In this document: piece by piece, positions 2,240 through 61,210 of the stretch | Layout: the number at the start of each line of letters is the position of its first letter | Numbering within the stretch: position 1 is the first letter of the stretch | NCBI RefSeq assembly: GCF_018446385.1 | Contig: NC_055986.1 | Coordinates: forward strand, 25,592,302 to 25,656,301 | DNA from: Zingiber officinale | Taxonomy: Eukaryota > Streptophyta > Magnoliopsida > Zingiberales > Zingiberaceae | DNA: 64,000 bases | Reading direction: 5' to 3' | Translations under genes and position numbers: made by a program | Notes under the pieces: generated by a model | Database searches by the model: none | Told to the model about the DNA's origin: nothing | What the model saw: the letters and a program-made list of their open reading frames with translations, nothing else

Positions 2240-2252
2240 ATCTCCCACTTAT
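2240..2252 (-). other. Polypurine tract of the minus-strand Copia element
   Basis: Read on the minus strand this is AAGTGGGAGATTA, directly beside the LTR. The same motif (AAGTGGGAGAT) sits before the 3' LTR of the plus-strand relative at 12330-12340. Confidence 0.8.
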
Positions 2253-3552
2253 ACTAAAAGACTATGCTGCCATATATACTGCCATACATCTGATTCCCAT
2301 CCCCTCAACATGCCCATCAAAAGCTCTTGCCTTAAGGGCCTTAGTGAAAAGATCCAGGTTATCTGCTGATGCAATCTAGACGGTAACAACTTTTCCTTGT
2401 TATACGATATCTCGTATTATGTGGTACTTGTGATTTATGTGTTTATTTGCCTTATGGGCTCGTGGTTCCTTCGAGTTTGATACTGCACCACTTATTATCA
2501 CAATATACTGTAATAATTTTGGACAAACCAGGAATCACATCTAAGTCCATCATGAAGTTTCTAAGTTATACAACTTCTATGGCTGCCTCAGAGGTTGTCA
2601 CATACTCAGCTTCCATGGTGGAGTCTGAAAAAGCATTTATGCTTAATACTCCTCCATAGTTATGGCTTCACCTCCTAAAGTAAACACAAACCCCCAAGGT
2701 TGACTTACTATTGTCACTATCGGATTGGAAATCCAAATCCGTGTAACCCACAGGGAGCAAATCATCTGCTTGGTAAACCAACATATAATCTCTAGTCCTT
2801 TTCATGTACTTTAATATATGCTTTATGGCAGTCCAATGTCCTTGTCTTGGATTACTTTGATATCTGCTAACCATGCCCACGGTAAAACAGATATCCGATC
2901 TCGTGCATAACATAGCATACATTAGGTTTCCTACAGCTGAAGCATAAAGAACTACCTTCATTTCTTTTATCTCTTTTGATAAAGATACTCCATGCCTAAA
3001 AGGTAGAAAACCTTTCTTGGAGTCTTGCATGCTAAAACGAGCTAGGATCGTATCAATATATGAAGCTTGGGATAAGCACAACATTCTTTTCTTATGATTC
3101 CTTATTACTTTGATCCCAAGAATATGTGCACATTCTCCCAAGTCCTTCATATCGAATTGCTTGGACAACCATACCCTTACTTCCGACAACACTTTGATAT
3201 TGTTTCCAACTGACAAAATGTCATCTATGTATAGTACAAGGAATACCACCACGTTTTCATCACACTTCTTGTATACACAAGACTCATCCGGACACTGAAT
3301 AAATCCATACGACTGGATTATTTCATTAAACTGGATGCTCCAAGACCTTGAAGCTTGCTTCAGTCCATAAATAGACCGATTGAGCTTATATACTAGATGC
3401 TCTTTGCCCTTTGCAATAAACCCCTCTGGTTGCTTCATATGGATGTTTTCTTCAAGACTTCTGTTAAGGAAAGCTGTCTTGACATCCATTTGGCAAACCT
3501 CATAATCCATATGAGCGGCAATAGATAAGAGTATCCGGATAGATTTAAGCAT
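2253..3552 (-). pseudogene. Copia reverse transcriptase and RNase H (RT block still open)
   Basis: The open stretch at 2668-3552 encodes 294 residues of Copia RT. It shows VDVKTAFLN near the start, PEGF, LNRSIYGLKQA, the catalytic YIDD (a usual variant of YVDD), and LGECAHILG. It then enters RNase H (GYTDLDFQSDSDNSKST) and stops. RNase H similarity continues with stops down to about 2280, including an EAEYV-like catalytic block and VYCDN. This is the best-preserved coding part of this family in the window. The starting methionine is internal to pol and is not a true start. The block alone could not support transposition because RNase H and the upstream integrase are interrupted. Confidence 0.85.
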
Positions 3553-5134
3553 AGCTACTGACGAAAAGGTTACCTCATAATCGATTCCCTCTTTCTAAGT
3601 ATACCCCTTCACAACAAGCCTTGCTTTGAAGGTTTCCACCTTCCCGTCTGTCCCTCTTTTCCTTTTGTAGACCTATTCACACCTAATGGGTTTTACACCA
3701 TTTGGTGGTTCTACAAGCTCCCAGACTTGATTAGAATACATAGATTCTATTTCTGTATTTATTTCTCTTTGCCAAGATGTTATATCTTTATCTTAGAGTG
3801 CTTCGTCATATATCCAGGGATTAGGTTCATGTTCACCAGGGATCAAGTCCAAAGACTCTCCCAAAATATGAATCTTTCAGGTTGCCTAACAACCCTCCCA
3901 CTACGATGAGGTACTATCTATAATTGTGCATTATTTGTGACACATGTTGCAGTTTCTTGTGATATTTCATCTTGCACTGTTGGTACTAGATTAGACGTGT
4001 CCTTTATTATTTCTTTAAGAACAATTTTACTCATGGGCTTGTGGTTCATAACATAGTCCTTTTTTAAAAATCGGGCATTAATACTAACAATGACCTTCTG
4101 AATCTTAGGACTATAAACCTCCTTTCATTTTTCTAGGATAACCCACAAACAAGTGAACTCCTGTTCATAATTCCAACTTATCAGTGTCTCCTTTCAGCAC
4201 ATGTGTTGGACTACCCCAAATCCGAATATGCTTCAGACTAGGCTTATGCCCATTCCACAATTCTATGGGAGTAGAGGGTACAGACTTAGAAGGTACTATG
4301 TTCACTACCATTTCCAGAGTATATCCCCAAAACGAATTTGGTAATTCTGAATAACTCATCATTGATTTAACCATTTTCATAAGAGTCATATTCCTTCTTT
4401 ACACCATTCTGTTCGGGTGTACCAGGTGCAGACAGTTGGGATTGAATCCCGACATCTGATAAGTAACTCCTAAACTATCCTAAGAGGTACTTGCCACTAC
4501 AATCACACCGTAGTGTCTTGATACTTTTACCATGATGTTTCTCCACATCAGTCTTGTACTCTTTAAACTCATCAAATCACTCAGACTTGCAACGCATCAA
4601 GTAAATATACCCGTATCTCGAATAGTCATCTATAAAAGAGATGAAATATTCGAAATCACCGCTTGCCTGGATAGTCATAGGTATAAATAAGAATGAACCA
4701 ATTCCAACACATCTTTGGCTCTATACTCCTTAGACTTAAAAGACCTCTTGGTCATTTTTCCTTCCAAGCAAGACTCGCAGGTTGGAAAGTTTTCCACCAC
4801 CAATGAATCCAAAAGTTTATCCGCTATTAACCTTTGAATCCTACTCAAGTTAATATGACTTAGCCTAAGATGTCAAAGATATGTTTGGTTCATTTCCAAA
4901 GGTTACTTTCTCTTATTAAAATTAGAAGATATGTTATTAATTTCCATTTGTTGCATCGTGGGAGTATTGCATATCAGAACAAATAACTTCCCTATTTTAC
5001 TTAATAACAACTTTGTCATCAAAAGAGATAGAATATCCATCCTTAAATAGTTTTAGAAACTGAAATCAAGTTCTTTCTAAAACTTGGTACGAAAAGACAA
5101 TCAATATTTTATTCTTATCAAAGGATAAACATCT
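3553..5134 (-). pseudogene. Copia integrase and GAG-pre-integrase remnants
   Basis: Minus-strand translation around 4165-4389 gives 74 residues of the integrase C-terminal part (ELPNSFWGYTLEM, ELWNGHKPSLKHIRIWG). Further toward 4880 lies the pre-integrase zinc-finger region, best seen in the duplicate copy at 15202-15444 (HLRLSHIN, CESCLEGKMT). The RT linker at about 3560-4110 includes VVRQP/LGEF-like sequence. Stops and frameshifts break it throughout. At 5134 it is interrupted by the 5' LTR of the plus-strand element. Confidence 0.8.
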
Positions 5135-7714
5135 TGTTAGGATGTATACTAAAAGCCTAGCTTTTGGTATAAACATTTATCTAGAAATAAGAATCACATT
5201 GGTCAAATGTCTACATTTATGATAAATGTAGTTGTTCAATTAATTTATATTGTAGATAACATGGTGTGTGGTGTCACACACAGAGGATCATGTTATCAGT
5301 ATCTTATAAATTATAAACAGTAGCTCATGCCCAAGATGGAAAGGAACAAACCATTGGAAGGTCGTAGTGCAATTAGGTATTAGTTTATCTTAACTATATA
5401 ATTATACTAGTACACTTAGAGTGTATTGAGTAGGACCATTAGATGTCGTTTCTTTTATACTGACTTTATAAAGGAACAAAGACCTCAGTTATTATGGAAG
5501 TGTGTGCTCTTAATCCTAATATAATAATAAGCACATATATTTGATATTTATTTCTTTAATTTATCAATGGGTGAGATTTAGTTCGATAAATCAATAAGCC
5601 CGATAAGTTGGGAAATGATATCACTTATAGTGTGTGTTGTTGATTATAGAAGGAAACTGTGTCCTAGTAATCTAGGTTGAGAATGTTCCCAAGAGGAGCT
5701 CATAAGGATTGTCATGTTAAACCCTGCAGGTGGACTTAGTCCGATATGACGATAAGGTTGAGTGGTACTACTCTTGGACTAAGATATTAATTAAATGAGT
5801 TGTCAGTAACTCACTTAATTAGTAGACATTCGACATCTTAAACACAGGGAGACTAACACACTCATAATAAGAAGGAGCCCAAAAATGTAATTTGAGATTG
5901 GTGCGGTAGTTCAATAATAGTTCTCTAGTGGAATGAATTATTATTGATAAAATTAAGTTGTGTGTTCAGGGCGAACACGGGATGCTTAATTTTATCGGGA
6001 GACAAAAACCAATTCCTTCTCTCGGTCCCTATCATAGCCTCTTAATTATAGAGTACTATACCCACCTTCTTACCCATCCTATAGGGGTCGGCTAAGCTAG
6101 CTTGGAGACCAAGCTAGGGCCGGCCATGGTTTGGTTCATGGGTGAATTCATGTGGCCGACCCTAGCTTGAACTCAAGCTTAGGTGCCCGGCCCTATTAAA
6201 ATAAAAAGGAATTTAATTTTAAATTTTTTTCTTATGTGGATAACATGATTTAAAAGAGAGTTTAAAAATTTAAATCTTTTCTTTTATAAGATTCTACAAA
6301 AGATTAAGAGAAGAGATAAATCTCTTTCCTTATTTGTAGATTAAAAGGTTGATTTTAATTTTGGTAAAAACTTTCTTTTTAATCATGTTCATGATTTAAA
6401 AGAAAGTTTAAAAATTAAAAATTCTCTTTTATTAGTTTCTACAAAAGATTAAGAAAAGATTTAATATCTTTCCTTATTTGTAGATTGAAAGGAGATTTTA
6501 ATTTTTAGAGATAACTTTCCTTTTTAGAAATTATCCACATGTTTAAAAGAAAGTTTTTAATTTATAAAATTTTCTTTTTATTAACCAATCATGAAGGGAT
6601 AAAAATTATTGGATATATTTTTATAAATTTCCGGAAGAAAATAAGGAAGTTTTAATTTGTGTTTAAAATTTTATTTGCTTGGAGATATTAATGTGGCCGG
6701 CCATTGAAATTGAGAAAAGAATTTTGATTTTAATTAATTAAATTTTTTCCTTTTCATGGCAAAAGAATTAAGGAAGTTTTTATTTAAATTTCCTTATTTG
6801 CCAAGACCAAGGATTATAAAAGAGGGGGTAGAGGTGTCTTCATGGTGAACGACTCTATTATTTTCTCCTCTCTTTTTCTCCTTGGGTGTGGCCGGCCCCT
6901 CCTCTTTCTTTCTTCTCCATCTTGTGGCCGAACCTCTTCATGCTCTTGGAGTTTTAATTGGTGGTCGGATTCTAGCTTGAAGAAGAAAGAGAGAAAGCTT
7001 GCATCCCTTGGAGCTTGGTTGGTGGAAAAAGTTCATCATCCTTTGGAAGTTTTTGCTTGGCCGGAACTTGAAGGAAGAAGAAGAAGGTGCTAGGTGGTTC
7101 TCATCTCGGAAGATCATTGCCCACACAATGTCCGAGGTTAGAAGAGGAATACGGTAGAAGATCAAGAGATCTTTGTCTTCAAAAGAAAGGTATAACTAGT
7201 AATATTTTTCCGCATCATGCTAGTTTTATTTCTTTGTAAAAATACCAAATACAAGAGGCATACGATTCTAGTATTTCGAATTTGTTTTCAATGTTGTGTT
7301 CTTTTGTTTTTTCTTTTCCTTGTGATTTGATTGTTCTTTTCGGTTGACCTAAAGTTATTTAAAGAAATTAAATATTAACTTTCCTTAAAAGGCTTTGTCT
7401 AGTCGGTGGTGGTTGTTCCCATATCCAAGAAGGTCATGTGCCTCGCCACGTCAGTACTGGGAGCCAATTTTGGAAACTAATATTTAATGAAATTAATAAC
7501 CTAGGTGATTTGGATCGAACGTGTTAAGTTCCACAGGAGATCCGAGTCTAAACCTAAAAGAACAAATAAATTAAACTTAGGATCAAACGTGTTAAGTTCC
7601 GCAGGCGATCCGAGTTTAATTTAAAAGAACACATGGTAGCTAGGAAAAGGTTCAGACCTTTGTATAAAATTTTTGTACAGTGGAACCATTAGGTTTTCCG
7701 AGTAGCAACCAACA
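5135..7714 (+). repeat. 5' LTR of the plus-strand Copia element
   Basis: The LTR is 2580 bp, begins TGTTAGGATG and ends CAACCAACA. A TATAAAAG box is at 6815-6822. A polymorphic AT-rich part of U3 with runs of AAAGGA/TCCTTT lies at 6180-6800. An 83-codon open frame at 6842-7093 recurs in the 3' LTR but is not kept in the related LTR at 50240-52912. Confidence 0.92.
6815..6822 (+). promoter_or_regulatory. TATA box of 5' LTR promoter
   Basis: TATAAAAG follows the conserved TTTGCCAAGACCAAGGAT. The same block occurs in the other family LTRs at 14031-14038, 52020-52027 and, on the minus strand, 20787-20794. This conserved position marks the probable U3/R promoter. Confidence 0.6.
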
Positions 7715-7715
7715 A

Positions 7716-7732
7716 TTGGTATCAGAGCTAGG
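7716..7732 (+). other. Primer binding site, initiator tRNA-Met type
   Basis: TTGGTATCAGAGCTAGG lies one base after the LTR end. This is the usual plant Copia PBS. Confidence 0.9.
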
Positions 7733-9350
7733 GTTTTGCCTCTGTGTATTTGGCATTAGTTTAATTATGCACATGCCATACATAATTTAGGCAGGTTAAT
7801 AGTAGGATGTGCTAACTTTGTGGATGCAGGATCCAACTATTATGGCTTATAGTTATTATGTGTGTGATTGGACCCTTGGACATGTCAAGGGCATTTTATT
7901 GTGTGTGCATGATTGTATTATAAAATACAGCAGGAGTTGTATTTAGTTTTATTAGAATTTTATTTTTTGATCTAGTTACATGTACATTCCTTTTATGGAA
8001 TATAGGATCGATGGATGTAAATTTTATTTTATGTTCGATCTAGTTTACATGTACATTCATTCGAGGAATATAGGATCGAAAAATGTAAAATTCTATTTAT
8101 GTCGTGGATCGAATCTTGCAAGGCGTGGAACCTTTTGAGGATCAGTGGCACAGCGGAACAAGGAGCAAGATGGATGCGACAACTAGACCCGGTGGTGGTG
8201 GCCAAAGATGGCAGAAGCTAGGGTTGGCGACACACGGAGGGCAATAATAGATAAAAGCCATAATAGTTGAAAATTAGTTTTTCTATTTATTGCTTTTTAT
8301 GCTGTGTTGTGTGTGTTTGTTAGTATGCATGCTAAGTAGGCTAGCATAGTCAAAATTCCTCAATTTAAATAACTAAGTGGGAGAGGGATTTATTTTTAAA
8401 TAAATTTCACGGTCTCCATTACTGGTTTATAAATGATGCAACAAGCTTGCACGTTGACTCTGAGTGCCTTCCTCCATATCAGATGAGCTTGTTTGCGGAA
8501 CACTAGCTTAAACTTCCATTTTGGATGACTATAGGAAGTTAATTAAGAGCGTGTGATCTTCCCCATCGGAAGGGACACAATCTTATTAACGGACTTAGTG
8601 TCAAGTAATAGTATACACTTAGGCACGTCTAATAGTATCCTCCCCATCGGAGTCACTGCTATTATTTGTGTGACCGAAGAAAACCAACTATTAATTTATC
8701 AAATAAATAAGTTGACAAGATAATAAAATTAAAAACCCCTCTTACAAATGTTTGATTTTGTATACGTCCACACTATTGTGGCATACAAAATTCACGGTGT
8801 TTGAGATAATTTTATTTGTCATAAAGATTTATTGACAAGATAATTAATGGGTAAACCCCTCCTCTTACAAATGTTTAATTTTGTATACGTCCACACTATC
8901 GTGGCATGCAAAATTCACGGTGTTTGAGGTGTTGGTAAATTTAAATAATATTGTTTGAGGAATCAATTTTATTTTAAATTCAAAAGTTTTGACCAAATAT
9001 TTGATCAAAGAAAGATCAACTATTAATTTTATTCGTCATAAAGTAAAGTTGACGAGATAATAAAATTAATGGATAAAATCTCTTCTTTGATTTTGTATAC
9101 GTCCACACTATCGTGACATACAAAATTCATGGGGATTTTAAGGAATTGATCTTGACCAAATATTTTTGTGATTCTTAGGATTTAAAATGTTTGTCAATTC
9201 CCTAGTTGTTATACTATAGAAAAGACTTAGTAGTCCCGATTGTAATGATTGGAAATAGGACTTGGACATTAAGGTAGTCTGTCTTTTTAGAAACTAAAGA
9301 ACAATAAAGGTGTATTTAATTCATTAGTTGAAACATGTTTAGTGGTGTTA
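7733..9350 (+). other. Long leader with tandem motifs, no gag found
   Basis: About 1.6 kb separate the PBS from the protease remnant. No gag-like UBN2 segment or CCHC knuckle is visible and no forward frame of 60 codons is open. At 8700-9130 a motif with GTATACGTCCACACTAT followed by GTGGCATACAAAATTCA or a variant repeats three times. The leader of the minus-strand element holds four copies. The lack of gag is an observation from reading, and extreme decay cannot be ruled out. Confidence 0.65.
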
Positions 9351-12329
9351 TCTACCAGAACCTGGAGTGTCGATACAGATGTCATTAATCATGTCCACAA
9401 TTCATTGCAGGGTTCCAGGAAAAACTAAATGAAAATAAAAACACCGTCCACATGGGCACTGCTGTAAAAGTGGCAACTGTTGTAGTGGGAGATGTTTATC
9501 CTTTGATAAGAATAAAACATGGATTTTGAGTAATTGTCTTTACGTACCAAGTTTAGAAAGAACTAGTTTTCAGTTTCTAAACTATTCAAAGAACTTGATA
9601 TTCTGCCTCTTTTAATAACAAAGTTGTTATTAAGAAAAAGAGGGAAGTTATATGTTCTGTTACGTTGGTTGGCAATTTATAAATCCAATAACTCCCACGA
9701 TGCAACAAATGGAAATTAGTAACACATCTTCTAACTTTAAGAGAAAGCAACCTTCGGAAATGAACCAATTATATCTTTGACATCTAAGGCTAGGTTATAT
9801 TAACTTGAGTAGGATTCATTGGTAGCTGATGAACTTTTGGGTTCATTGGTAGTGGAAATCTTTCCAACCTGCGAGTTTTACTTGGAAGGAAAAATAACCA
9901 AGAAGCTTTTAAGTCTAAGGGGTATGGAGTCAAAGATATGTTGGAATTGTTTCATTCTGATTTGTGCGATCCTATGACTATCCAGATAAGAGGTAGTATC
10001 GAATATTTCATCTATTTTATAGACAACTATTCAAGATACAAATACATTTACTTAATGTGCCGCAAGACTAAGTGCTTTGATTAGTTCAAAGAGTACAAGG
10101 CTGATGCGGAGAAACGTCAAAGTAAAAGTATCAAGATACTACGGTGAGATCGTAGTGGCAAGTACCTCTTGGGAGAATTTAGGAGTCACTTATTAGAAGT
10201 AGGGATTCAATCCCAACTAACTGCACATGGTACACCCCAACAGAATGGTGTAGAAAAAGGAAGGTATAGAACTCTTATGGAAATAAGTAGATTGATGATG
10301 AGTTATTACCAAATTCATTTTAAGGATATACTCTGGAAACGGAAGTGAATATAGTACCTTCCAAAGTCAGAACTCTCTACTCATATAGAATTGCTGAATA
10401 AGCGTAAGCCTATTTTGAAGCATATTCAGATTCGGGTAGTCCAGCACATATGCTGAAGAGAGATAATGATAAGTTGGACAGGAATTCACTTGTTTGTGGG
10501 TTATCCTAGAGAAATGAAAGTAGGATTATAGTCTTAAAAATCAGAAGGTCATTGTTAGCATCAATGACCGATTTTTAGAAAAGGACTATGTAATAAATCA
10601 CATGCCCATAAGTAAATTTGTTCTTAAGGAAATAATAAAGGACATGTCTAACCTAGTACCAACTGTACAAGATGAAATATCACAAGAAACTGCAAAACGT
10701 ATCACAAATGATACACAATTGCAGAAAGTGCCTCGTCGTAGTGGGAGTGTTGTTAGGCAACCTAAAAAGATTCATGTTTTGGGAGAGTTTTTGGACTCGA
10801 TCCCTGGAGGACATGAACCTGATCTCTGGGCATATGACGAAGCACTCCAAGATAAAGATGCAGCATCTTGGCAAAGAGTAATGAATAACAGAATTAGAAT
10901 ATATGTATTCTAATAAAATCTGGAAGCTTGTAGAACCACCAAATGGTGTAAAAGCCTTTGGGTATAAAAAGGTCTATAATAGGAAAAGAGGGATAGACAG
11001 GAAGGTAGAAACTTTCAAAGCAAGGCTTGATGAAAAAGGAAACTTTTTCATTGGTAGACATGCTTAAATCTATCTGGATTCTTTTATCTATTTGGCAAGT
11101 GGATGTCAAGACAGCATTCCTTAATGGAAGTCTTGAAAAAAGCATCCATATAAAGCAACCAGAAGGGTTCATTGCAAAGGGCTAAGAGCAACTTGTGTGC
11201 AAGCTCAATCAGTCTATGGACTGAGACAAAGCTTCAAAGGTCTTGGAACATCCGGTTTATCAAAGTTATCCAGACCTATGGATTTATTTAGTAACCAGAT
11301 AAGTCTTGTGTATACAAAAGGTGTGATGGAAACGTGGTGGTATTTCTTGTACTATACGTATATTACATTTTTGATAGTTGGAAACAATATCAAGGTGTTA
11401 TCGGAAGTAAGGGTATGGTTGTCCAAGCAATTCGTTATAAAGGACTTAGGAAAATAAGCACATATTCTTGAGAACAAGGTTCGCAAGAAAAGAATGTTGT
11501 GCTTATCTCAAGCTTTATATAACAAGCTCGTTTTAGCATGCAAAACTCCAAGAAAGGTTTTCTACCTTTTAAGCATGGAGTGTCTTTATCTAAAGAGATG
11601 TCTCCGATGACATCAAAGGAGATTGAGGGCATGCAGGCAGTTCTTTATGCTTCGAAAGTTAGACAGCCTAATGTATGCTATACACGAGATCAGAAATCTG
11701 TTTTGCCAAGGGCATAGTTAACAGATATCAAAGTAACCCTAGACAAGGACATTGGACTGTAGTAAAGCATATATTAAAGTACCTTAGAGGCACTAGAGAT
11801 TATATGCTAGCTTACAAGGTAGTTAATTTGGTCCCTGTGGCTTGCACGAATTTTGACTTCCAATAATAAGTAAACCTCGGGGTTTTGTGTTTACTTTAGG
11901 AGGAAAAGTCATAACTATGGAAGAGTGATAAGCATAGGTATTTTTCTGGACTCCACCATAGAAGCTGAGTATATGGCAAGCCTCTGAGGTAGCCATAAAA
12001 GTTAAATGACTCAATAACCTCAAGATGGACTTAGATATGATTTCTGGTTTGTCCAAAGATTATTACAATTCATTGTAATAATAGTGATGCAGTAGCAAAC
12101 TCGAAGAAACCATAAGTCTATAAGGCAAGTAAACGCAATAGAGCGCAAGTACCACCCAATACAAGAAATCGTATAAACGAGAAGAAGTTGTTGCTGCCTA
12201 GATTGCATCAAGTGATAACCTAGAAGATTCTTTCACTAAAGCCCTTAAGGCAAGAGCTTTTGATGGGCATGTTGAAGGTTTGGGAATCAGATGTATGGTA
12301 GCAGTTATGGCAACTTAGTCTTTTAGTAT
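9350..12329 (+). pseudogene. Decayed Copia pol (protease, integrase, RT, RNase H)
   Basis: A protease-like stretch lies at about 9355-9480, a pre-integrase region at about 9770-9910, integrase at about 9930-10500, and the integrase-RT linker at 10602-10913 (103 open codons with SGSVVRQPK and LGEFLDS). RT is at about 11040-11690 and RNase H at about 11690-12290. Stops and shifts occur in every domain. At 11350-11385 the catalytic YIDD seen in the minus-strand copy is replaced by a YITFL-like reading, so the RT aspartates are gone. Confidence 0.85.
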
Positions 12330-12340
12330 AAGTGGGAGAT

Positions 12341-14914
12341 TGTTAGGATATATACTAAAAGCCTAGCTTTTGGTATAAACATTTATCTAGAAATAAGAAT
12401 CACATTGGTCAAATGTCTACATTTATGATAAATGTAGTTGTTCAATTAATTTATATTGTAGATAACATGGTGTATGGTGTCACACACAGAGGATCATGTT
12501 ATCAGTATCTTATAAATTATAAACAGTAGCTCACGACCAAGATGGAAAGGAACAAACCATTGGAAGGTCGTAGTGTAATTAGGTATTAGTTTATCTTAAC
12601 TATATAATTACACTAGTACACTTAGAGTGTATTGAGTAGGACCATTAGAGGTCGTTTCTTTTATACTGACTTTATAAAGGAACAAAGACCTCAGTTATTA
12701 TGGAAGTGTGTGCTCTTAATCCTAATATAATAACAAGCACATATATTTGATATTTATTTCTTTAATTTATCAATGGGTGAGATTTAGTTCGATAAATCAA
12801 TAAGCCCGATAAGTTGGGAAATGATATCACTTATAGTGTGTGTTGTTGATTATAGAAGGAAACTGTGTCCTAGTAATCTAGGTTGAGAATGTCCCCAAGA
12901 GGAGCTCATAAGGATTGTCATGTTAAACCTTGCAGGTGGACTTAGTCCGACATGATGATAAGGTTGAGTGGTACTACTCTTGGACTAAGATATTAATTAA
13001 ATGAGTTGTCAGTAACTCACTTAATTAGTGGACATTCGACATCTTAAACACAGGGAGACTAACACACTCATAATAAGAAGGAGCCCAAAAATATAATTTG
13101 GGATTGGTGCGGTAGTTCAATAATAGTTCTCTAGTGGAATGAATTATTATTGATAAAATTAAGTTGTGTGTTCAGGGCGAACACGGGATACTTAATTTTA
13201 TCGGGAGACCAAAACCAATTCCTCCTCTCGGTCCCTATCATAGCCTCTTAATTATAGAGTACTATACCCACCTATACTCACCTTCTTACCCATCCTATAG
13301 GGGCCGGCTAAGCTAACTTGGAGACCAAGCTAGGGTAGACCATGGTTTGGTTCATGGGTGAATTCATGTGGCCGACCCTAGCTTGAACTCAAGCTTAGGT
13401 GCCCGGCCCTATTAAAATAAAAAGGAATTTAATTTTAAAATTTTTTATTATGTGGATAACATGATTTAAAAGAGAGTTTAAAAATTTAAATCTTTTCTTT
13501 TATAAGATTCTACAAAAGATTAAGAGAAGAGCTAAATCTCTTTCCTTATTTGTAGATTAAAAGGTTGATTTTAATTTTGGTAAAAACTTTCTTTTTAATC
13601 ATGTTCATGATTTAAAAGAAAGTTTAAAAATTAAAAATTCTCTTTTATTAGTTTCTACAAAAGATTAAGAAAAGATTTAATATCTTTCCTTATTTGTAGA
13701 TTGAAAGGAGATTTTAATTTTTAGAGATAACTTTCCTTTTTAGAAATTATCCACATGTTTAAAAGAAAGTTTTTAATTTATAAAATTTTCTTTTTATTAA
13801 CCAATCATGAAGGGATAAAAATTATTGGATAAATTTTTATAAATTTTCGGAAGCAAATAAGGAAGTTTTAATTTGTGTTTAAAATTTTATTTGCTTGGAG
13901 ATATTAATGTGGTCGGCCATTGAAATTGAGAAAAGAATTTTGATTTTAATTAATTAAAATTTTTCCTTTTCATGGCAAAAGAATTAAGGAAGTTTTTATT
14001 TAAATTTCCTTATTTGCCAAGACCAAAGATTATAAAAGAGGGGGTAGAGGTGCCTTCATGGTGAACGACTCTATTATTTTCTCCTCTCTTTTTCTCCTTG
14101 GGTGTGGCCGGCCCCTCCTCTTTCTTTCTTCTCCATCTTGTGGCCGAACCTCTTCATGCTCTTGGAGTTTTAATTGGTGGTCGGATTCTAGCTTGAAGAA
14201 GAAGGAGAGAAAGCTTGCATCCCTTGGAGTTTGGTTGGTGGAAAAAGTTCTTCATCCTTTGGAAGTTTTTGCTTGGCTGAAACTTGAAGGAAGAAGAAGA
14301 AGAAGGTGCTAGGTGGTTCTCGTCTCGGAAGATCATTGCCCACACAATGTCTGAGGTTAGAAGAGGAATACGGTAGAAGATCAAGAGGTCTTTGTCTTCA
14401 AAAGAAAGGTATAACTAGTAATATTTTTCCGCATCATGCTAGTTTTATTTCTTTGTAAAAATACCAAATACAAGAGGCATACGATTCTAGTATTTCGAAT
14501 TTGTTTTCAATGTTGTGTTCTTTTGTTTTTTCTTTTCCTTGTGATTTGATTGTTCTTTTCGGTTGACCTAAAGTTATTTAAAGAAATTAAATATTAACTT
14601 TCCTTAAAAGGCTTTGTCTAGTCGGTGGTGGTTGTTCTCATATCCAAGAAGGTCATGTGCCTCGCCACGTCAGTACTGGGAGCCAATTTTGGAAACTAAT
14701 ATTTAATGAAATTAATAACCTAGGTGATTTGGATCGAACATGTTAAGTTCCGCAAGAGATCCGAGTCTAAACCTAAAAGAATAAATAAATTAAACTTAGG
14801 ATCAAACGTGTTAAGTTCCGCAGGCGATCCGAGTTTAATTTAAAAGAACACATGGTAGCTAGGAAAAGGTTCAGACCTTTGTACAAAATTTTTGTACAGT
14901 GGAACCATTAGGTT
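12341..14914 (+). repeat. 3' LTR of the plus-strand Copia element, last 19 bp missing
   Basis: The LTR begins TGTTAGGATA after the purine tract and follows the 5' LTR to GGAACCATTAGGTT (14914, equal to 7695). The final 19 bases, ending ACCAACA, are absent, and minus-strand integrase sequence follows at once. A TATAAAAG box is at 14031-14038. Confidence 0.92.
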
Positions 14915-15679
14915 AACCATTTTCATAAGAGTCATATTCCTTCTTTACACCATTCTGTTCGGGTGTACCAGGTGCAGACAGTTGGGATTGAATCCCGACA
15001 TCTGATAAGCAACTCCTAAACTATCCTAAGAGGTACCTGCCACTACAATCACACCGTAGTATCTTGATACTTTTACCATGATGTTTCTCCACATCAGTCT
15101 TGTACTCTTTAAACTCATCAAATCACTCAGACTTGCAGCGCATCAAGTAAATATACCCGTATCTCGAATAGTCATCTATAAAAGAGACGAAATATTCGAA
15201 ATCACCGCTTGCCTGGATAGTCATAGGTATAAATAAGAATGAACCAATTCCAACACATTTTGGCTCTATACCCCTTAGATTTAAAAGATCTCTCAGTCAT
15301 TTTTCCTTCCAAGCAAGACTCGCAGGTTGGAAAGTTTTCCACCACCAATGAATCCAAAAGTTTATCGGCTATTAACCTTTGAATCCTACTCAAGTTAATA
15401 TGACTTAGCCTAAGATGCCAAAGATATGTTTGGTTCATTTCCAAAGGTTACTTTCTCTTATTAAAATTAGAAGATATGTTATTAATTTCCATTTGTTGCA
15501 TCGTGGGAGTATTGCATATCAGAACAAATAACTTCCCTATTTTACTTAATAACAACTTTGTCATCAAAAGAGATAGAATATCCAACCTTAAATAGTTTTA
15601 GAAACTGAAATCAAGTTCTTTCTAAAACTTGGTACGAAAAGACAATCAATATTTTATTCTTATCAAAGGATAAACATCT
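14915..15679 (-). pseudogene. Duplicated Copia integrase / pre-integrase block
   Basis: This is a near-identical second copy of 4369-5134, in the same minus orientation. It contains the pre-integrase zinc-binding motif at 15202-15444 (HLRLSHIN, CESCLEGKMT) in an 80-residue open stretch. It ends in CATCT at the insertion point used by the plus-strand element and runs on without a break into the remaining minus-strand element. Confidence 0.88.
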
Positions 15680-15917
15680 CCCACTGCAATAGCTGTTACT
15701 TTTGCAGCAGTGCCTATGTAGACGATGTTTTCCCCTTCATATAGTTGTCAGGTTTCTTGGAACCCCTGCAAAGAATTACAGACATGATCGATGACTCCTG
15801 TATCTACACATCAGGGGCCAGTAGATAACACCACTAAACATGTTTCAACAACTAATGAATAAAATACACCTTTATTGTTCTCATTTCTGAGAGGACTGTC
15901 CACCTTAGTGTCCAAGT
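15680..15917 (-). pseudogene. Copia protease region remnant
   Basis: This is the continuation of the minus-strand element upstream of pre-integrase. It is the counterpart of about 9180-9500 in the plus-strand element and includes a protease-like stretch with stops. It is interrupted at 15918 by a solo LTR and resumes at 18324. Confidence 0.7.
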
Positions 15918-18323
15918 TGTTAGAGTGTATACTAAAAGCATAGCTTTTGTAAACATTTATTTTGAAATAAAAGAATCACATTGGTCAAATGTCTACATTT
16001 ATTTGTTAAGTGTAGTTGTTCAATTAATTTATATTGTAGATAACATGGTGTGTGGTGTCACACACAGAAGATCATGTTATTAGTTCTTTATAAATTATAA
16101 ACAGTTGCTCACGACTAAGATGGAAAGGAAAAAACCATTGGAATAGTCGTAGTGTAATTAGGTATTAGTTTATCTTGACTAATAAATTACACTAGGACAC
16201 TCTAAGTGTATTGAGTAGGATCATTTTAGATAAGTTCTTTTTATACTGACTTAATAAAAGAACTAGACCTTAGTTATTATAGAAGTGTGTACTCTTAATT
16301 ATAATATAATAATAATCACATATATTTAGTATTTATTTCTTTAACTTATCAAAGGGTGAGATTTAGTTCGATAAATCTAAAGGCCCGATAAGTTGAGAAA
16401 TGATACTACTTATAGTGTGTGTTGTTGATTATAAAAGGAAACTGTGTCCTAGTTATCTAGGTTGAGAATGTCCCCAAGAGGAGCTCATAAGGATTGTCAT
16501 GTTAAACCCTGCAGGTGGACTTAGTCCGACATGACAATGAGGTTGAGTGGTACTACTCTTGGACTAAGATATTAATTAAAGTGAGTTGTCAGTAACTCAA
16601 TTACATTAATGGACATTCGATATCTTAAACACAAGGAGACTAACACACTCATGATAAGAAGGAGCCCATAATGTAATTTGAGATTGGTGCGGTAGTGCAA
16701 TAATAACTCTCTAGTGGAATGAGTTATTATTGATGAACTTGAGTTGTGTGTTCGGGGCGAACATGGGATACTCGAGCTCGTCGGAAGGTAAAAACCAATT
16801 TTTCTTCTAGGTCCCTGTCGTAGCCTCAATGAAGTCTTAAATCCAGTCATGAAAAATCCATTTTGGTATCCAAGAGAGGGTCGACCAAGCTATAGGGGCC
16901 GGCCACTTACTTCTTAAAGGGGTCGGCCCTTTGCTTGGTGCCCAAGCAAAAAGGGGTCGGCCAATAAAATTCAAACTAGGAGGGGTGTTTTGAATTTTTA
17001 AAATTTTCTCTTTGTAGATATCTACAAGTTTTAAAAGAGAGATTTTAAAATATAAAACTTTCCTTATTTGAATTAGGTCACATGGTTTAAAAGAAAGTTT
17101 AAAAGTTTTAAAACTTTCCTTTTTTTAACCATCCTCATGGTTTTCGAAAAAAGGAAGGGAGTTTTAAATTTGAAACTTTCTATTTTTGTAACCATGTTAA
17201 AAAATAAAATTTTAGAAGAGAAGTTTAAATTTTAAAACTTGGTTTTAATTTTAAAACTTTCCTTTTTTAACACTCACATTAGGAAATTAAAAGAGAGCTT
17301 GTAAAATTTTATAAGAGTTTTCCTTCTTTTCTTATAAAATTTTTACAAAACTATTTTTCCTTCTTTTAAGGGCCGGCCACCCTTGCTTGGTGCCCAAGCA
17401 AGGGGTCGGCCAAATCATTCAATCAATGATTGAATCAATCAAGAGAAAAAAAGGAAAAATAAAAGGGGAAAAAGGAAAATAAGAGGAAGATTTTAATTTT
17501 TTGTAAAAATCTTTCCTTATTTGCCTTGGGCAAGTAATATAAAAGAAGAGGAGGGGAGGCCTCATGAAATATCAATTCTTATTCTCTTGTTGAAACTCCC
17601 TCTTGTGGCCGACCCTCTCCTCTTCTCTTTCCCCTTGCTCTCTTTTGCTCCGTGGTGGTGGTGGTGGTCGAATACTAGAAGGAGGAAGAGCTTTTGGGTG
17701 GTGTTTATCTTGGAGGATTGTCGCCCACACGACATCCAAGGCGAGGCGAGGAATACGGCAGAAGATCTCGAGGTTATTAGCATACAAAGAAAAGGTATAA
17801 CTAGTAATTGTTTTCCGCATCATGCTAGTTATTTTTCTTTGTATGAATTCCAAACACAAGAGGCATTAGATTCTAGTTTTTCGAATTTATAATTTGAGTT
17901 TGTGTTTTTTTTTGTTTTTCGAATTTGTGATTCGATTGTTCTTTTTGTTTAAACCTAAAGTTATATAAGGAAATTAAATATTAGCTTTCCTTAAAAGGCT
18001 TTGTCTTGGCGGTGGTGGATGATCTCATACCCAAGAAGAACTAGTGCCTCACCATACAGTCCTGGAAGCCAATTTTGGAAATTAATATTTAATTGAATTC
18101 ATAACATAGGTGGATTTGGATCAATAATGTTAAGCATCGTTTGTGATCCAAATCTAAACCATTAAGAACAGATAAGTTAAATTGGAATCAATAATGTTAA
18201 GTTCCGTTTGTGATTCCTAATTTAATTTCTAAAGAATACAATAGGTTGTTTAGGAAAGGTTCGACACTTGTACAAAATTTTTATACAGTGGAGCCGGTAC
18301 GATCTTCCTAGGACCAACCAACA
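15918..18323 (+). mobile_element. Solo Copia LTR with perfect 5-bp target duplication
   Basis: This is a 2406-bp LTR, TGTTAGAGTG...CCAACCAACA, related to but clearly diverged from the other LTRs here. The target-site duplication is CAAGT at 15913-15917 and 18324-18328. There is no internal region. A TATAAAAG box is at 17538-17545. It splits the minus-strand element cleanly. The solo state implies recombination between two LTRs of a once complete element. Confidence 0.93.
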
Positions 18324-19868
18324 CAAGTTTTGTTTCCAATCATTATAATTGGGACTAGTAAATGTATTCTCTAATATCTAGGGGATTGATAAACATTTGA
18401 AATCCTAAGAATCGCAAAAATATTTGGTTAAGACCAACACCTCAAAATCCCCGTGAATTTTGTATGCCACGTTAGTGTGGACGTATATAAATTCAAACAT
18501 TTATAAAAGGAGATTTTATCCATTAATTTTATTGTCTTGTCAACCTATCTTTATGACAAATAAAATTAATAGTTGGTTTGTCTTCGATCAAATATTTGGT
18601 CAAAACTTTAGAATTTAAAATAATATTGATTCCTCAAAACAATATCATTTAAATTCACTAACACCTCAAACACCGTGAATTTTGTATGTCACGTTAGTGT
18701 GGACGTATACAAATTCAAACATTTGTAAGAGGAGAGTCTTACCCATTAATTATCTTGTCAACCTTAAATTACCTCAAACACCATGAATTTTGTATACCAC
18801 GATAATGTGGACATAAACAAATTCAATTATTTGTAAGAGGAGGTTTTACCCATTAATTTTATTTTGTCAACCTAACTTTATGACAAATAAAATTACCTCA
18901 AACACCATGAATTTTGTATGACACAATAGTGTGGATGTATACAAATTCAAACATTTGTAAGAGGGGGTTTTACCTAGCTTTATGACAAATTAATAGTTGA
19001 TTTTTCTTCGGTCACACAAATAATATCAGTGACTCAGTTGGGGAGGATACTATTAAATGCGCCTAAGTGTATATCATTACTTGATACTTAGTCCATTAAA
19101 TAGGATTATGCCCCTTCAGTTGGAGAAGATCACATGCTCCTAAATAATTTCCTATAATCATCCATAAAGAAAATTTGATCTAGTGATCCGCAAAGAAACT
19201 CATCCGATGTGGAGGGAGGCACTCAGAGCCAATGCGCAAGTTTGTTTCATCACTTGCAAATCAGTAATGGAGACCATGGAATTTATTTATAAATCCCTCC
19301 CCCCACTTAGTTATTTAAGATGAGGATTTTATCATGCACACACACACACATCACAGCAAATAAAAACAATAAATATGGAAAAACAATTTTCCAACTATTA
19401 TGGCTTTTTTCCATCACTGTCCTCCATATGCTGCCAACCCTAGCTGCTGTCATCTTTAGCCACCGTCATAGGGTCTAGTTGTCGCATCTATCCTACTTCT
19501 TTTTCCGCTGTGCCTCTGGTCCTTAAATAGTACCACGCCTCACAAGGATACGATCCGCGACAAAAATAGAGTTTTACATTTATCGATCCTATATTCCATG
19601 AAGGAATGTACATGTAATCTAGATCGAACAAAAAGTAAAATCCTAAAACTAATACAGCTCTTGCTATATTTAATAAATACAATCATGCACGCACACATCA
19701 AATGCCCTCGACATGTCCGAGGGTCCAATCACACACAATCACAATAGGCCATAATAGTTGGAGCCTGCAACCACAGAGTTAATCTATTTGCACATTCTAC
19801 TATTATCCTGCCTAAAATATGTATGACATGTGCATAATTAACTAAAACCAAACACACAGAGGTTAAAA
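18324..19868 (-). other. Leader of the minus-strand Copia element, with tandem motifs and no gag
   Basis: This lies between the protease remnant and the PBS. Four copies of a motif with TGAATTTTGTATG, GTGTGGACGTATA and ATTTGTAAGAGG are spaced at about 18450, 18670, 18775 and 18900. As in the plus-strand relative, neither a UBN2 segment nor a CCHC knuckle is visible, and no gag-length frame is open. Confidence 0.65.
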
Positions 19869-19885
19869 CCTAGCTCTGATACCAA
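19869..19885 (-). other. Primer binding site of the minus-strand element
   Basis: Read on the minus strand this is TTGGTATCAGAGCTAGG, one base inside the 5' LTR. It is identical to the PBS at 7716-7732. Confidence 0.9.
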
Positions 19886-19886
19886 T

Positions 19887-22410
19887 TGTTGGTTGCTACT
19901 CGAAATACCATCCTAGGTCCCCTGTACAAAAATTTATACAAGCATAGAACTTTCCTAGCTACCCATGTGCTCTACTGAAGCTAAGTTTGGATTGCAAATG
20001 ATGCTTAACATTATTAATCCAAATCATCCTTCAGAAGTTAAACTTGAATTGGGAACGAAACTTAACATTCTTACTTCAAGTTTTAACTGATATAATCTTC
20101 CTAAGTTAAACCATATTACAGAAGTTGATCAAATATCTATTTCAAGGATCGACTTTCAGGTCAAACGTGGTGAGGCAGTTGGCCTTCTTGGGTATGAGAT
20201 CATCCACCACTGCCTAGATAAAGCCTTTCAAAGAAATCGGATATTTAAACTTCTCACAGTAAACTAGGTTTAACTATAGAGACCTCAATAGAAATACATT
20301 ATCGAAACATGAAATCGAAATGAATATCGATAACAAAAATGATAATTAAAACCGATAACCTCTTGTGTTTGATTTTACAAGATCTATATAAAAAGGATGC
20401 ACTAGTTATGATGTGAAAACTTATAACTAGTTATACCTTTCGTAGCTTATAGACCTCTTGATCTTCTATTGTATTTCTCTTCTTATCTCGAACGTCGTGT
20501 GGACGACGATCTACCAAGACGAGAATCTACCCAAGCCTTCTTCTTCCTTCCAAGTTTTGGCCACCAACTTTCTCAAAGAGATGATGAAGTTCGGCCACCA
20601 ACCAAGCTCCAAGGGATGCTAGGAAACAATGCCTCCTTCTTCTCCTTCTTCTCCAAGCATGAACCGGCCACCAATCCAACCTTCAAGTCTTAATGCCACC
20701 GGCCACAAAGATGAAGAGAAGAGGAAGAGCAAAGGGTCGGCCACTACCAAGGAAGATGTGTTCTTGGGTGAGGCACCCCTCCTTCTCTTTTATATTCCTT
20801 GGTCTTGGCAAAAAAAGAAAAGTTTTGTAACAAAAATAAAACTTCCTTTTTCTCCTATGACATGGCCGGCCATATGCTTATTCTCCAAGCAAGGAAAGAT
20901 TTTAAACAAAATTAAAATCTCTCTTTTAAAATCTCTTTTGTGGATAGTTATAAAAGGAATGTTTTATAAATTAACATCTCTCTCTTTTAAATCCTTTTAT
21001 GGATATCTATAAAAGATAAGATTTAAAATAAAACATGGTTATAAAAGGAAAGTTTTATCAAAAATTAAAATATTTTTTTCATATTATAGATAACTACAAA
21101 TAAAGAAAGATTTCAAATATCTCTTTTATTCCTTTGTAGAAATTTATAAAAGGAAAGATTTTAAAATTTAAAACTCTCTTTTAAAACCAACATAAAAGGA
21201 AAGTTTTTAACAAAACAAAAACTCCCTTTTATTTCCTTTTATGACCGATCTAAAAAAGAAAAGTTTTATATTAAAATCATCTTTTTAAATCATCTTTTTA
21301 AATCTATATAAAAGGAAAGATTTTACAAAATAAAACTTCCTTCTCTTCATGATGTGGTCGGCCACTTGCTTGGGCACCAAGCAAGCTTGGCTGACCCTAG
21401 CTTGGGCTCCAAGCATAGCTTGGCCGGCCCCTTGCTTGGTCTCCAAGCAAGGCTTGGCCGACCCTAACTTAGGCCTTAAGAAGCTAGGCTTTGAGTGGAT
21501 ATAAGACTTTATATAAGAGGCTACAATAGGGACCAAGAGGAGGAATTGGTTTTGATCTCCCGATGAGCTTGAGCTTCCCGTGTTCACCCCGAATACCCAA
21601 CTCAAGTTCATCAATAATATCTCATTCCACTAAAGAGTTATTATTGCACTATCGCACCAATCCCATATTACAATATGAGCTCCTTCTTATTATGAGTGTG
21701 TTAGTCTCCTTGTGTTTAAGATATTGAATGTCCACTAATTAAATGAGTTACTGACAACTCACTTAATTAATATCTAGCTCCAAGAGTAGTACCACTCAAC
21801 CTTATCGTCATGTCGGACTAAGTCCACCTGCAGGGTTTACATGACAATCCTTATGAGCTCCTCAAGGGGACATCATCAACCTAGATTACTAGGACACATT
21901 TTTATTCTATAATCAACAACACACCATATAAATAATATATTTCCCAACTTATCGAGCGTATTGATTTAACGAGCTAAATCACACCCTTTGATAAATTAAA
22001 GAAATAAATATTAAATATACGTGCTTGTTATTATATCATGATTAAGAGTACACACTTCCATAATAATAGAGGTTTTGTTCTTTTATATAGTCAGTATACA
22101 AAGATAATACCTCAAATGGTCCTACTCAATAGACTCATAGTGTACTAGTGTAATTTATTAGTCAAGATAAACTAATACATAATTACACTACAACCACTCC
22201 AATGGTTTGTCCCATTCCATCTTGGTTGTGAGCAACTGTTTATAATTTATAAGGAACTGATAACATGAACTTCTGTGTGTCTCCTCACACCATATTATCT
22301 ACAATATAAATTAAACGGACAACTATACTTAGAATAAATGTAGATATTTGACCAATGTGATTCTTATACATGTTTATACAAAATCTAGACTTTTAGTATA
22401 CATCCTAATA
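19887..22410 (-). repeat. 5' LTR of the minus-strand Copia element
   Basis: The LTR is 2524 bp. The inner end on the minus strand reads CGAGTAGCAACCAACA and the outer end TATTAGGATG, a TG-to-TA change shared with the 3' LTR. A TATAAAAG box on the minus strand lies at 20787-20794. It abuts a different LTR fragment at 22411, whose first five bases (GGAAG) should be the TSD. Confidence 0.9.
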
Positions 22411-30788: not shown

Positions 30789-33700
30789 ATGGCCGACGGT
30801 ATCCTGGAGCAAACCCTAGGGGACACCGAGGACCGCGCCCTCCTCTCCGGCTCCGGTGGCGCTGACGACCGATCTCCAACGGAGTCCGGTGATTCTTCCC
30901 TCTCACGATCCCTTTCTTCCAGCCGACTCAACGCCCAGGCAGCAGAGTTTGTCCCCCGCTCCTCGCAGCTCCCCGATTCTACCCCAGTGCCGATCCGTCA
31001 TGGACATGCTCCTGTGGCTCACCCAGTGATGCACGTATTCCACCAGGCGCCTCCAAGCTCAAATTATTTTGCTCCCGGCTCGGGTTCGTTCGAGTACTAT
31101 GGGGCTGCCCAGTCCGGCGGGTTTAGGGATCACGAGGGTGGACATACGAGTGCTGATCCTGAACGAACCCCTCTGGATAAGGACGAGCTTCCAGAAGAAG
31201 TTATCCAAAAGATCACGAAACAGGTTCGTGTGACTTTGCCTCAAGCATTTCATGAGTTCATATGCTTAATTTCCTTGTGATACTATCTATAGTGTATTAG
31301 AATTGACATTTATCGAAAGATTTATGGTGCTTCATTGGTTTTGTCAGTAAAGTTAGGAGATGAACCTTTTAAACTGCTCGAGGGTTACTATAACGTGTTT
31401 TTCTTAGATAACGCAGCATCTAGCGTCATCAAATATTAATTGGCTTGATAACACAACTCTACTAGACATATACCAATTGTTTAGCTCTCATGTGAAGTTT
31501 AGTGATTTGGATAGACTGGTTTACTTGAAGAAAATGGAGTAGTGAGACTATAGATGATAGAAAAGTAAATTTTGTTTTATTAACCAATTCATCATTGATC
31601 GGCCTTTTTTTGGACTTATGTTAGATGAATAGAAATTGTAGTATCGAAAGTGTTAGGGGATGGGGGGTTTGAATAGTGCTCGTGGCTTTTTCATATTTTT
31701 CGTAAATCAATAGTATATGCAGCGGAAAAAAGAATTCAAAAGAAGTATCAACAGAGACAAAGCTAACACATTATTTTTCACTTGGTTCGGAGCATGTGGT
31801 GACTCATACTCTAAGGTCCGCGATCGTCGATCGCTTTTGTTGGACAATCCACTAATAATTTCGAATAAGTACAAGTACAAAGTGATAATATTTAAAAAGC
31901 TATAACCGAAATTTTACCGACAACTAAAGATTCAGAGATTCGTGCTTCGGTCGTTGGAGCAGTGTTGCAGTGTCGTCGAGTTGTTTTTGGAGCAGCGCGC
32001 AAGAGAGTAAATTGTTGGAGTTGTTATGTTTGAGGTGCTGGTCAAAGTCCATTTTATAGGCTACCTCCGGGTGCCTGGACTAGTCGCAGCGCCCCCACGT
32101 GACATCCTCTCGTCGAAACTCTATCCAACAACTTTTATCCTTACCTTGGCGCTTGGACCACTCCTCGGGCTTGGACGCTGATGTGTGCTGACCAATCGGA
32201 ACGCGCCAACTCATTTGCACGCGCGGCAGAGTTCGGCCTAGTCTGAGAGCCCAGACCCAATCCGGTTTGCGTCTGGGCATCTGGACCCCGTCCGAGCACC
32301 TGGATGCCCATTTTCTGGGCAATCTTTCAGCTTTGATTTCTTGTACCATAGAGTTAGCACAACAAACAAAATATATCATTTTGAATGAATTTGACAGTCT
32401 TGGGATTGTTTGGTTCTGACTTTTGGATTTCCGTGAAACCCTAGGTCAAATCGACTTTTATTGTTCTCTCAACAGGGAACGCGTCCTCACCTACTCCTCT
32501 CAGGAGAGTTTACCTGATGTCAAACCAGTCCTTCAGACCGTTTGGACTTTTGTTCAGCATCCTGGACTTTAGGATTTTATGCTGGATGTCCCATCTTCGA
32601 CCCGTCCATTCGTCCGCCTAGTGTCTGCAACCTCTAGGACTTTTATCCACTGTCCTCGATTAGTAGGATTTTTCGTCTGATGTTCTTGACCTGTTAAGAC
32701 TTTTGTCCAGTCCATCAAACTAGAACTTCCTTGTCTAGCCGCAATTAGGGCTTTCTAACTGTCTAATATTCGCTAGGACTTTTACTTTACCTAAGTTCAC
32801 TTATGACTCTCAGTCAGACTTGTTAGAACTACAATAATCCTTAACTTTGAATCCTTTACCATTATCAAAATTTAGGTTCGATCATCTAGTGTTTTCTGCA
32901 CCAACAATCTCCCCTTTTGATTATGGCAACATAATTTAAAGTTAAGTAAAACATAACTAGTTAAGAATAACTAGAGACTTGTACAAGTAAGAATTTTCAA
33001 TTGCCTTTTTTCAAAGTTAAAATTTCTAAGTATAAAAACAGAACTTAGAAAAGGTTACAAAGTTAAAATTTCTAAGTTAAATTCCTCCCAAAAAATTTTT
33101 AACTTTAAGCCCCTCTAGAAAATAGCATTTACTTCTTTTCTTTTTGAAAAATTTTAACTTTTGAAAACTAGCAACTTAACTTTTAATCTTCCCCCCCCCC
33201 CCCAATTGACATATATCAAAAATAATTTGCAAAAGAAATGTAAAGAACTCCTCAATTAATGCTAAAAATTTTAAAGATACAAATGCTTAAATGATTGTTT
33301 TGTTTAACGGAGAAAAATTTGCAAAAATGAAAAATTAGGTAAAGTTAATAGCATGAGTATAACTCTAGAGTCCAAGCATAAATGTAATTTGGAAAATTAA
33401 TTAGGTTTTGAAAACTTAATTTGGTTTTGAAAAATTTATTTGCTTAAGAATTAATTAATTTAAGTTTTAAAAATTAATTAAAGTTTTGAAAATTAATTTA
33501 AGTTTTAAAAATTAAATTAAAGTTTTGAAAATTAATTAAGGTTTTGAAAAATTAATTTGGTTAAGAATTAATTAATTGAAGTTTTGAAAATTAATTAAAG
33601 TTTTAAAAATTAATTTAAGTTTTGAAAATTACTTTAAGTTTTAAAATTTAAGTTTTGAAAATTAATTAAAGATTAAATCTTGAAAAAATAATTAAAAAAT

Positions 33701-59240: not shown

Positions 59241-59384
59241 TTTTTTTAAATTTATTCTAATAAAAAATATTCAACTAATTAAATATTATATTTAAGAATC
59301 ATATCCACGGCCATATTCATTCCATTGTACAATATTATTATAATTCCTATTCCTAGTCCGATTTCTAAGAAAAAAACACAACTC

Positions 59385-59669: not shown

Positions 59670-59680
59670 CCCCCAATATG

Positions 59681-59688
59681 TATATATA
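59681..59688 (+). promoter_or_regulatory. Probable TATA box of the reductase gene
   Basis: TATATATA lies about 72 bases before the ATG at 59760. It suits a short 5' leader of 40-50 bases. Confidence 0.55.
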
Positions 59689-59759
59689 TCACACACAACC
59701 CCGAAAGCAGTAAATTCAGCACCAAATTAAAATTGAATTCGAGAGAGAACCAAGGAGCA

Positions 59760-61210
<1,451 letters not shown>

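Follow-up and report, generated by a model that had tools for sequence, protein, structure and literature searches.

A nest of large-LTR Copia elements

The window, a 64,000-nucleotide stretch of the ginger (Zingiber officinale) genome, holds in its left 22 kb a nest of one large-LTR Copia family. The outer element lies on the minus strand and consists of a 3' LTR cut by the window edge (1-2240), a pol remnant (2241-5134), a gag scar with protease and integrase remnants (14915-15917), a stretch with the PBS, leader and gag start remnant (18324-19886), and a 5' LTR (19887-22408). It is interrupted twice, by a full plus-strand element (5135-14914) and by a plus-strand solo LTR of the same family (15918-18323) with the 5-bp TSD CAAGT. 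Another plus-strand solo LTR of the family (50240-52912) has the 5-bp TSD CTAAC; its last 280 bp are 97% identical to the LTR of the plus copy and two inner patches about 72%, making it a separate mosaic. In the minus copy, the RT frame at 2668-3594 (minus strand) is open over 308 aa and keeps YIDD, while this copy lacks gag and has a broken protease and integrase.

The plus copy begins with a 5' LTR of 2,580 bp (5135-7714, TGTTAGG...CCAACA), followed by the primer-binding site (PBS) TGGTATCAGAGC (7717-7728), which we take to be of the initiator-tRNA-Met type, and by a non-coding leader (7729-9186) with repeats of ~110-135 bp starting at 8671. Up to ~8650 this leader groups with that of a gag-bearing sister element described below, and further on with that of the minus copy. 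The leader is followed by a gag 5' remnant of 28 codons (9187-9270), in which codon 11 is TAG, and by a deletion scar after 9270, where GACATT is joined to AAGGT. Remnants of the zinc knuckle end, protease, integrase, RT and RNase H (the last assigned by position only) occupy 9271-12329 with many stops and frameshifts. The polypurine tract AAGTGGGAGAT (12330-12340) and a 3' LTR without its final 19 bp (12341-14914) complete the element, all on the plus strand. Since 28 gag codons persist at 9187-9270, the stretch 7733-9350 takes in the gag scar as well as the first part of the protease region. This gag remnant, the nesting of the plus copy inside the minus copy and the shortened 3' LTR had all been missed by the first-pass annotation.

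The two LTRs of the plus copy are 98.2% identical over 2,557 aligned bases (K2P 0.0187). The K2P of the minus-copy LTR pair was 0.0363, and the plus and minus LTRs differ from each other by 0.30-0.33. At 1.3e-8 substitutions per site per year, the rate given in a ginger genome paper (PMC8342452), the LTR pairs correspond to ~0.7 My for the plus copy and ~1.4 My for the minus copy; both ages double at 6.5e-9, the rate given in the other ginger genome paper (PMC8342499).

Normal integration of this family leaves a 5-bp TSD, as seen at both solo LTRs. The left LTR end of the plus element is exact. Its right end is abnormal, being 19 bp short and overlapping by 2 bp the second copy of a 768-bp flank that is duplicated around the element (left copy 4367-5134, right copy 14913-15679; 98.2% identity). 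A cDNA-repaired break or a false assembly duplication would both fit this end, and the flank pair itself resembles a target duplication of 768 bp, or the product of mis-joined haplotypes. Such an end, with LTR sequence missing and the flank duplicated, raises the question of whether gene conversion between the two LTRs, and not recent movement, makes the copy look young. We consider this very improbable, since the duplicated flank, an independent clock, has a K2P of 0.0172, close to that of the LTR pair, and eight of the ten other copies tried show similar LTR divergence. Seven of these ten gave clean pairs over the first ~0.6-1.4 kb of the LTR (K2P 0.0149-0.0390) and an eighth differed by 3.4% over 619 bp; the remaining two were not datable. 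Long-range LTR alignment gave 0.43 for L012 and 0.25 for L033, and local alignment revealed that these LTRs are broken or shifted.

The first-pass annotation had described both large-LTR copies as having a leader of about 1.5 kb without gag and then pol remnants, and the plus copy as combining near-identical LTRs with a broken pol and a loss of the RT aspartates. Both descriptions were correct, and the PBS is present. In the HMM search for gag that it had proposed, no Pfam family matched the leaders of the two copies at E up to 1 (six frames, three per copy, with stops as X), and gag was rejected in the three leader frames of the gag-bearing sister as well. A gag hidden in the leader is ruled out by these searches. 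In the plus copy the pol matches were rve and RVT_2, the latter as broken pieces across three frames, and in the minus copy they were gag_pre-integrase, rve, SH3 and RVT_2 (4.9e-63). The RT motif reads YIDD in the minus copy and YVYY, with both aspartates lost, in the plus copy. The elements are assigned to Ty1/Copia by rve upstream of RVT_2 (integrase precedes RT), TG...CA LTRs, the 5-bp TSD at both solo LTRs, the PBS and the polypurine tract. A LARD is a large derivative with a non-coding internal region and no coding remnants, and this class was ruled out for the large-LTR copies by their recognisable pol remnants.

The gag scar and the gag-bearing sister

The assembly to which the window belongs (3.09 Gb, 211 contigs) was searched for further copies. 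A pol query gave 40 scored places out of 6,581 first-look candidates, and a leader query 40 scored places out of 7,825; leaving the window aside, identities were 95-96% and 97%, respectively. Sixty loci were fetched, which lie on a small contig and on 19 of the 22 large ones; the window copy is counted twice among them, leaving 58 others, and three pairs on C9 and C10 look allelic. Because the fetched loci were picked by their likeness to the window copy, shared lesions are enriched among them.

All 60 loci align across 9161-9320 and pass from the leader through the gag remnant into pol, with gag absent between; this is the outcome of the alignment of genomic leaders that had been proposed along with the HMM search. 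As in a gag-less Copia element, functional gag was absent from 60/60 loci, chosen by similarity. In these copies 28-29 gag codons are followed by the jump from GACATT to AAGGT, into the zinc knuckle end. The scar motif was exact in 55 loci and carried point changes in five, and codon 11 of the gag remnant was TAG in 57 and TAA in two of the 59 loci matched. The scar junction is also found in the minus copy, as GACACT joined to AAGGT, where nothing but the later solo LTR interrupts it. The plus and minus copies further have in common a 4-bp deletion in the protease region; its motif was found in 49/60 loci, the undeleted motif in 0/60 and neither in 11/60, and a longer motif for the same deletion matched 37 loci. 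From the plus-minus divergence of 0.16-0.175 and the rate of 1.3e-8, the gag deletion is roughly estimated to be no younger than about 6 My.

Pattern counts over the genome gave 8,907 places with the scar junction, 8,527 with the gag-present sequence and 0 for the reversed-pattern controls. The scar and intact-site patterns allowed up to 2 mismatches; their counts span both haplotypes and include fragments, and the gag-present pattern might take in near families.

A sister element with gag and pol after a like leader was found, and with it the copy with gag for which the first-pass annotation had suggested a search. Using the minus-copy RT as query, 128 other places were matched at 86-88% protein identity, with an open frame of at least 1,000 aa in 15 of 129 rows. 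One gag-bearing copy was read in two pieces, L089 and L090, with ~200 bp of gag between the pieces outside the reading; of its LTRs, the last ~280 bp of one were read. Compared with the plus copy, the sister has a leader 91% identical and an LTR end 89% identical, and its PBS is the same as that of the gag-less copies, which answers the PBS comparison also suggested. Its leader measures 1,115 bp from the PBS to the gag ATG, and downstream are gag, a knuckle-like CX2CX4YX4C (frame read by eye) and a protease-region match to Pol_BBD at 3.3e-18. The Pfam matches of its gag are weak (E 0.027 and 0.073) because the part read is short and the gag of that copy has a frameshift. Since the leader is also present in this gag-bearing copy, it is not a replacement for gag. 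The long open frames suggest that the sister may be autonomous. Eight further gag loci picked up by the initial search of the genome (L001-L008) were considered as relatives and rejected, as their DNA matched neither the internal region of the plus copy nor L089.

The claim that the large-LTR family as a whole has lost gag therefore does not hold: there is a branch that carries gag together with the same PBS and a similar LTR end and leader, and gag-present places stand at 8,527 against 8,907 with the scar. Relative to the sister, the 680 bp removed start at codon 30 of gag and end within the zinc knuckle; codon phase is kept, with both breakpoints at codon boundaries in the frames of the sister. 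A short repeat, GACATT/GATATT, is present at the two ends of the deleted stretch in the sister and could have guided the deletion. Given these breakpoints at codon boundaries, pol would have stayed in phase in the founding gag-less element, in the manner of Tos17. One shared deletion took 680 bp of gag out and left the LTR, PBS, leader and pol, with the decay of pol coming later. The phase-keeping deletion suggests that the first stage was gag-minus and pol-plus, and the open RT of the minus copy fits such a stage.

Decay of pol and the mosaic 5' end

Between the plus and minus copies, the 2,771 aligned bases of pol contain 32 indels, of which 27 have a length not divisible by three, whereas 4.2 indels are expected since insertion from those of the LTR pairs. 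Six RT indels of the plus copy are common to 25/25 spanning copies, an indel being counted as shared when no indel of that size lies nearby in the comparison with the window copy; four others are shared by 3, 4, 11 and 22 of the 25. The two RT aspartates were together in none of the 26 loci with the RT site, window included, and an identical changed form, reading YVDN, was present in 20 of them. The longest open stretch in the part of pol held was 83-131 aa in 29 copies. The six indels in 25/25 copies and the failure of 26/26 to keep both aspartates indicate that the plus branch spread after pol had died.

The window copies might otherwise be ordinary copies of an autonomous family that decayed separately, with gag lost by chance in each, and a gag-bearing family with long open frames does exist in similar numbers. 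This is barely credible, since the same junction region recurs in every fetched locus and in the thousands of places counted above, the six RT indels are common to all spanning copies, and pol holds many more indels than the time since insertion predicts. The shared junction and lesions largely refute separate decay unless the loci are mostly alleles or segmental copies, and the loci are spread over 19 of the 22 large contigs. Random decay of these two copies, which the first-pass annotation had named as part of a situation contrary to its reading, is rejected. The results support the view that the copies belong to a non-autonomous lineage, which multiplied in the absence of gag and, for the plus branch, of pol as well.

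Selection on pol was examined between the plus and minus copies. The RT frame had a dN/dS of 0.42 against a neutral median of 0.81 (one-sided P 0.004, 500 simulations). Elsewhere dN/dS was 0.55 in the wider RT-RNase H frame, 0.62 in the gag_pre-integrase piece and 0.66 and 1.02 in the integrase pieces, which showed no departure from neutrality; in the wider region, controls read in the wrong frame had values of 0.77 and 0.66. Uniform neutrality of pol does not quite hold, given the RT value, which implies that pol was not always useless. RT was probably retained over a portion of the history; the minus branch, with its open 308-aa frame, is the likeliest place for this, and on the plus branch RT was lost. 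A scan of viral contigs with the minus-copy RT gave 14 pattern matches and no relative. At the fetched locus L021 (C18:49036380) the 5' LTR lies after a polypurine tract, and L021 and L025 (C18:49021718) may be gag-less elements sharing an LTR in tandem.

Informative sites (n=352) were compared among the sister, plus and minus copies from 7437 to about 9780. Before ~8660 the sister and plus copies agree at 184 sites to 34, and after ~8660 the plus and minus copies agree at 95 to 39. A pattern as extreme was found in 0/2000 shuffles, and likewise in 0/2000 from the leader onward alone (259 sites). The breakpoint is approximate, as the sites at ~8640-9000 are few and mixed. In the fetched loci the sister-like fraction was 0.70-0.81 before 8650 (59 loci) and 0.13-0.36 after it (60 loci), the window copy being counted twice. 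The plus lineage is a mosaic, in which U5 and the first ~0.95 kb of the leader go with the gag-bearing copy and the rest with the older gag-less copy. Distances in the leader and the protease region were 0.160 and 0.175 for plus-minus, 0.173 and 0.249 for sister-minus, and 0.097 and 0.269 for sister-plus; a transfer from the gag-less to the gag-bearing side would also fit these values.

Within the LTR, R-U5 (6045-7714, about 1.65 kb) is far more diverged among family members than U3, the leader or pol. The plus and minus copies differ at 520 of 1,527 sites in R-U5 and at 109 of 893 in U3, with the divergence step near the predicted U3/R border at about 6045 (set by eye) and a putative TATA-like box near column 920. 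Faster mutation of R-U5 was rejected as the cause of its high divergence, as the LTR pairs of single copies have little or no excess there (P 0.76 and 0.025).

We propose that the gag-less RNA would be packaged in particles made of the sister's Gag, as the same PBS and like leader suggest, and that the sister's RT and integrase would copy and insert it. Template switching between the two RNAs in one particle would then give the mosaic 5' end. A mosaic 5' end is the expected trace of template switching and fits the sharing of particles by both RNAs. Gene conversion between high-copy repeats is also known, and the mosaic may have arisen by conversion between integrated copies and not in shared particles, in which case the helper may be another Copia family. 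We regard this as unlikely, though worth keeping in mind: the step near the predicted U3/R border and an exchange from R-U5 to mid-leader are what reverse transcription predicts, but they are not decisive.

From the copy number, the dates and the mosaic, we infer that the gag-less elements move in trans with the sister's Gag. The elements very probably form a non-autonomous Copia subfamily, which arose by deletion from a gag-bearing family of this genome and would be mobilised by the proteins of its sister. On the sequence evidence, the proteins are most likely borrowed from this sister, which is similarly common and shares its control regions. A further proposal, which we advance tentatively and with somewhat more doubt than confidence, is that the RNA 5' end (R-U5, PBS and the first ~0.95 kb of the leader) serves as the pass of the parasite into the helper particle. 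The gag-less lineage would have lasted some 6 My by exchanging this pass through template switching while the rest decayed, reaching a ratio near 1:1 with the helper, and a gag-minus, RT-plus stage, represented by the minus copy, would have preceded the full parasitism of the plus subfamily.

Candidate helpers and comparable systems

Two other Copia elements in the window have gag and no pol, as the first-pass annotation had reported. The old one lies at 31634-37406 on the minus strand (LTR K2P 0.232), and the other at 53955-57293 on the plus strand, with a 325-aa gag frame (LTR K2P 0.058). One gave a Pfam gag match at 1.8e-12 together with zf-CCHC and the other a gag match at 5.2e-13, and no pol family was found in the 12 frames scanned. 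In each element gag is followed by a region with weak leucine-zipper-like matches (HALZ, bZIP_1). The two gags resemble each other (43% identity, 1.5e-32) and are of a different lineage from the sister's gag: with a gag-only query, nothing in the gag part of L089 matched at E up to 10, and L090 matched only over the zinc knuckle (2e-4).

Elements that kept gag and no pol might supply Gag to the gag-less family, and one of the two has a PBS identical over 12 bases to that of the large-LTR elements, the other differing by one mismatch. Such a supply is nevertheless very unlikely, as their LTRs differ, their gag fails to match the start of the sister's gag, as far as this was read, and meets it only at the zinc knuckle, and a PBS of this type is common to many Copia elements. 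The suggestion that they form a helper network for the gag-less family is not supported. The broader view of a non-autonomous lineage mobilised by others stood in its first half, the scar and the dead RT arguing for non-autonomous spread; the helper would be the sister and not the gag-only elements. TR-GAG elements are a structural type with gag and no pol. Both gag-only elements share this structure, which is also that of the semi-autonomous Sabrina/WHAM elements described in PMC9744471. They are unrelated to the gag-less family by gag or LTR.

Tos17, a Copia element of rice, has no gag motif, a 1,058-aa pol frame and two copies, and it moves, as described in PMC3977881. It resembles the gag-less family in having LTR, PBS and polypurine tract without a gag motif, and the PBS is nearly identical (TGGTATCAGAGC). 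A gag-bearing helper of Tos17 was proposed from PBS likeness (PMC3977881), and one is proposed here for the gag-less family. However, Tos17 as described there keeps pol and lacks a gag remnant, whereas the plus subfamily of ginger has a dead pol, a gag remnant and a scar that occurs thousands of times. BARE-2 of barley has a disrupted Gag and is believed to use that of a relative, according to PMC9744471; it is like the ginger family in its Gag, but it keeps its other genes whereas the ginger pol is broken. The intact pol of the Tos17 and BARE-2 type was not found in the copies studied here, RT being dead in the plus subfamily and open in the minus copy, where the other parts of pol are broken.

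The RLC_Angela family of wheat, as reported in PMC9744471, includes non-autonomous subfamilies with degenerate coding regions, whose autonomous partners are similar in size and >85% identical. Its LTR and internal trees disagree, for which template switching or conversion was proposed (PMC9744471). The ginger family is likewise a Copia family with degenerate coding regions and conflict between segments. The features of a partner subfamily of the RLC_Angela-n type, namely dead copies, recent dates and high numbers, were seen in ginger; the likeness of the partner LTR is known from the last ~280 bp of one LTR, and the partner may be autonomous, as long open frames suggest. In contrast to RLC_Angela, where the whole coding region decays in the account of PMC9744471, one deletion cuts gag in ginger and the breakpoint lies inside the leader. 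In Arabidopsis, members of the ONSEN family, old ones included, recombine during transposition bursts (PMC5668417). That recombination was observed directly, whereas the exchange between gag-less and gag-bearing ginger elements is deduced from sequence.

In the literature searched on ginger and on non-autonomous Copia elements, judged by title and abstract start, no ginger elements of this kind were found, and the term "non-autonomous" is absent from the main texts of the ginger genome papers PMC8342452 and PMC8342499. The gag-less kind of element is already known; the ginger family, its scar and its breakpoint were not found in the literature searched. The intact LTR set of PMC8342452, as described there, comprises elements with complete gag-pol only, and the gag-less branch would escape an annotation limited in this way. 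For non-autonomous plant retrotransposons, helpers are often deduced from a similar PBS or LTR, as was done for Tos17. In the ginger case, one scar marks the parasites, a sister with a like front end is similarly numerous, and the exchanged RNA segment can be read from the recombination breakpoint. This opens the packaging region of a plant Copia element to direct testing, in a clean system for measuring the coexistence of parasite and helper.

Outside these elements, a long imperfect array of CTCTCTCATCACA-like repeats with overlapping open frames was observed at 58539-59244, just before ADH-like pieces at 59568-61210.
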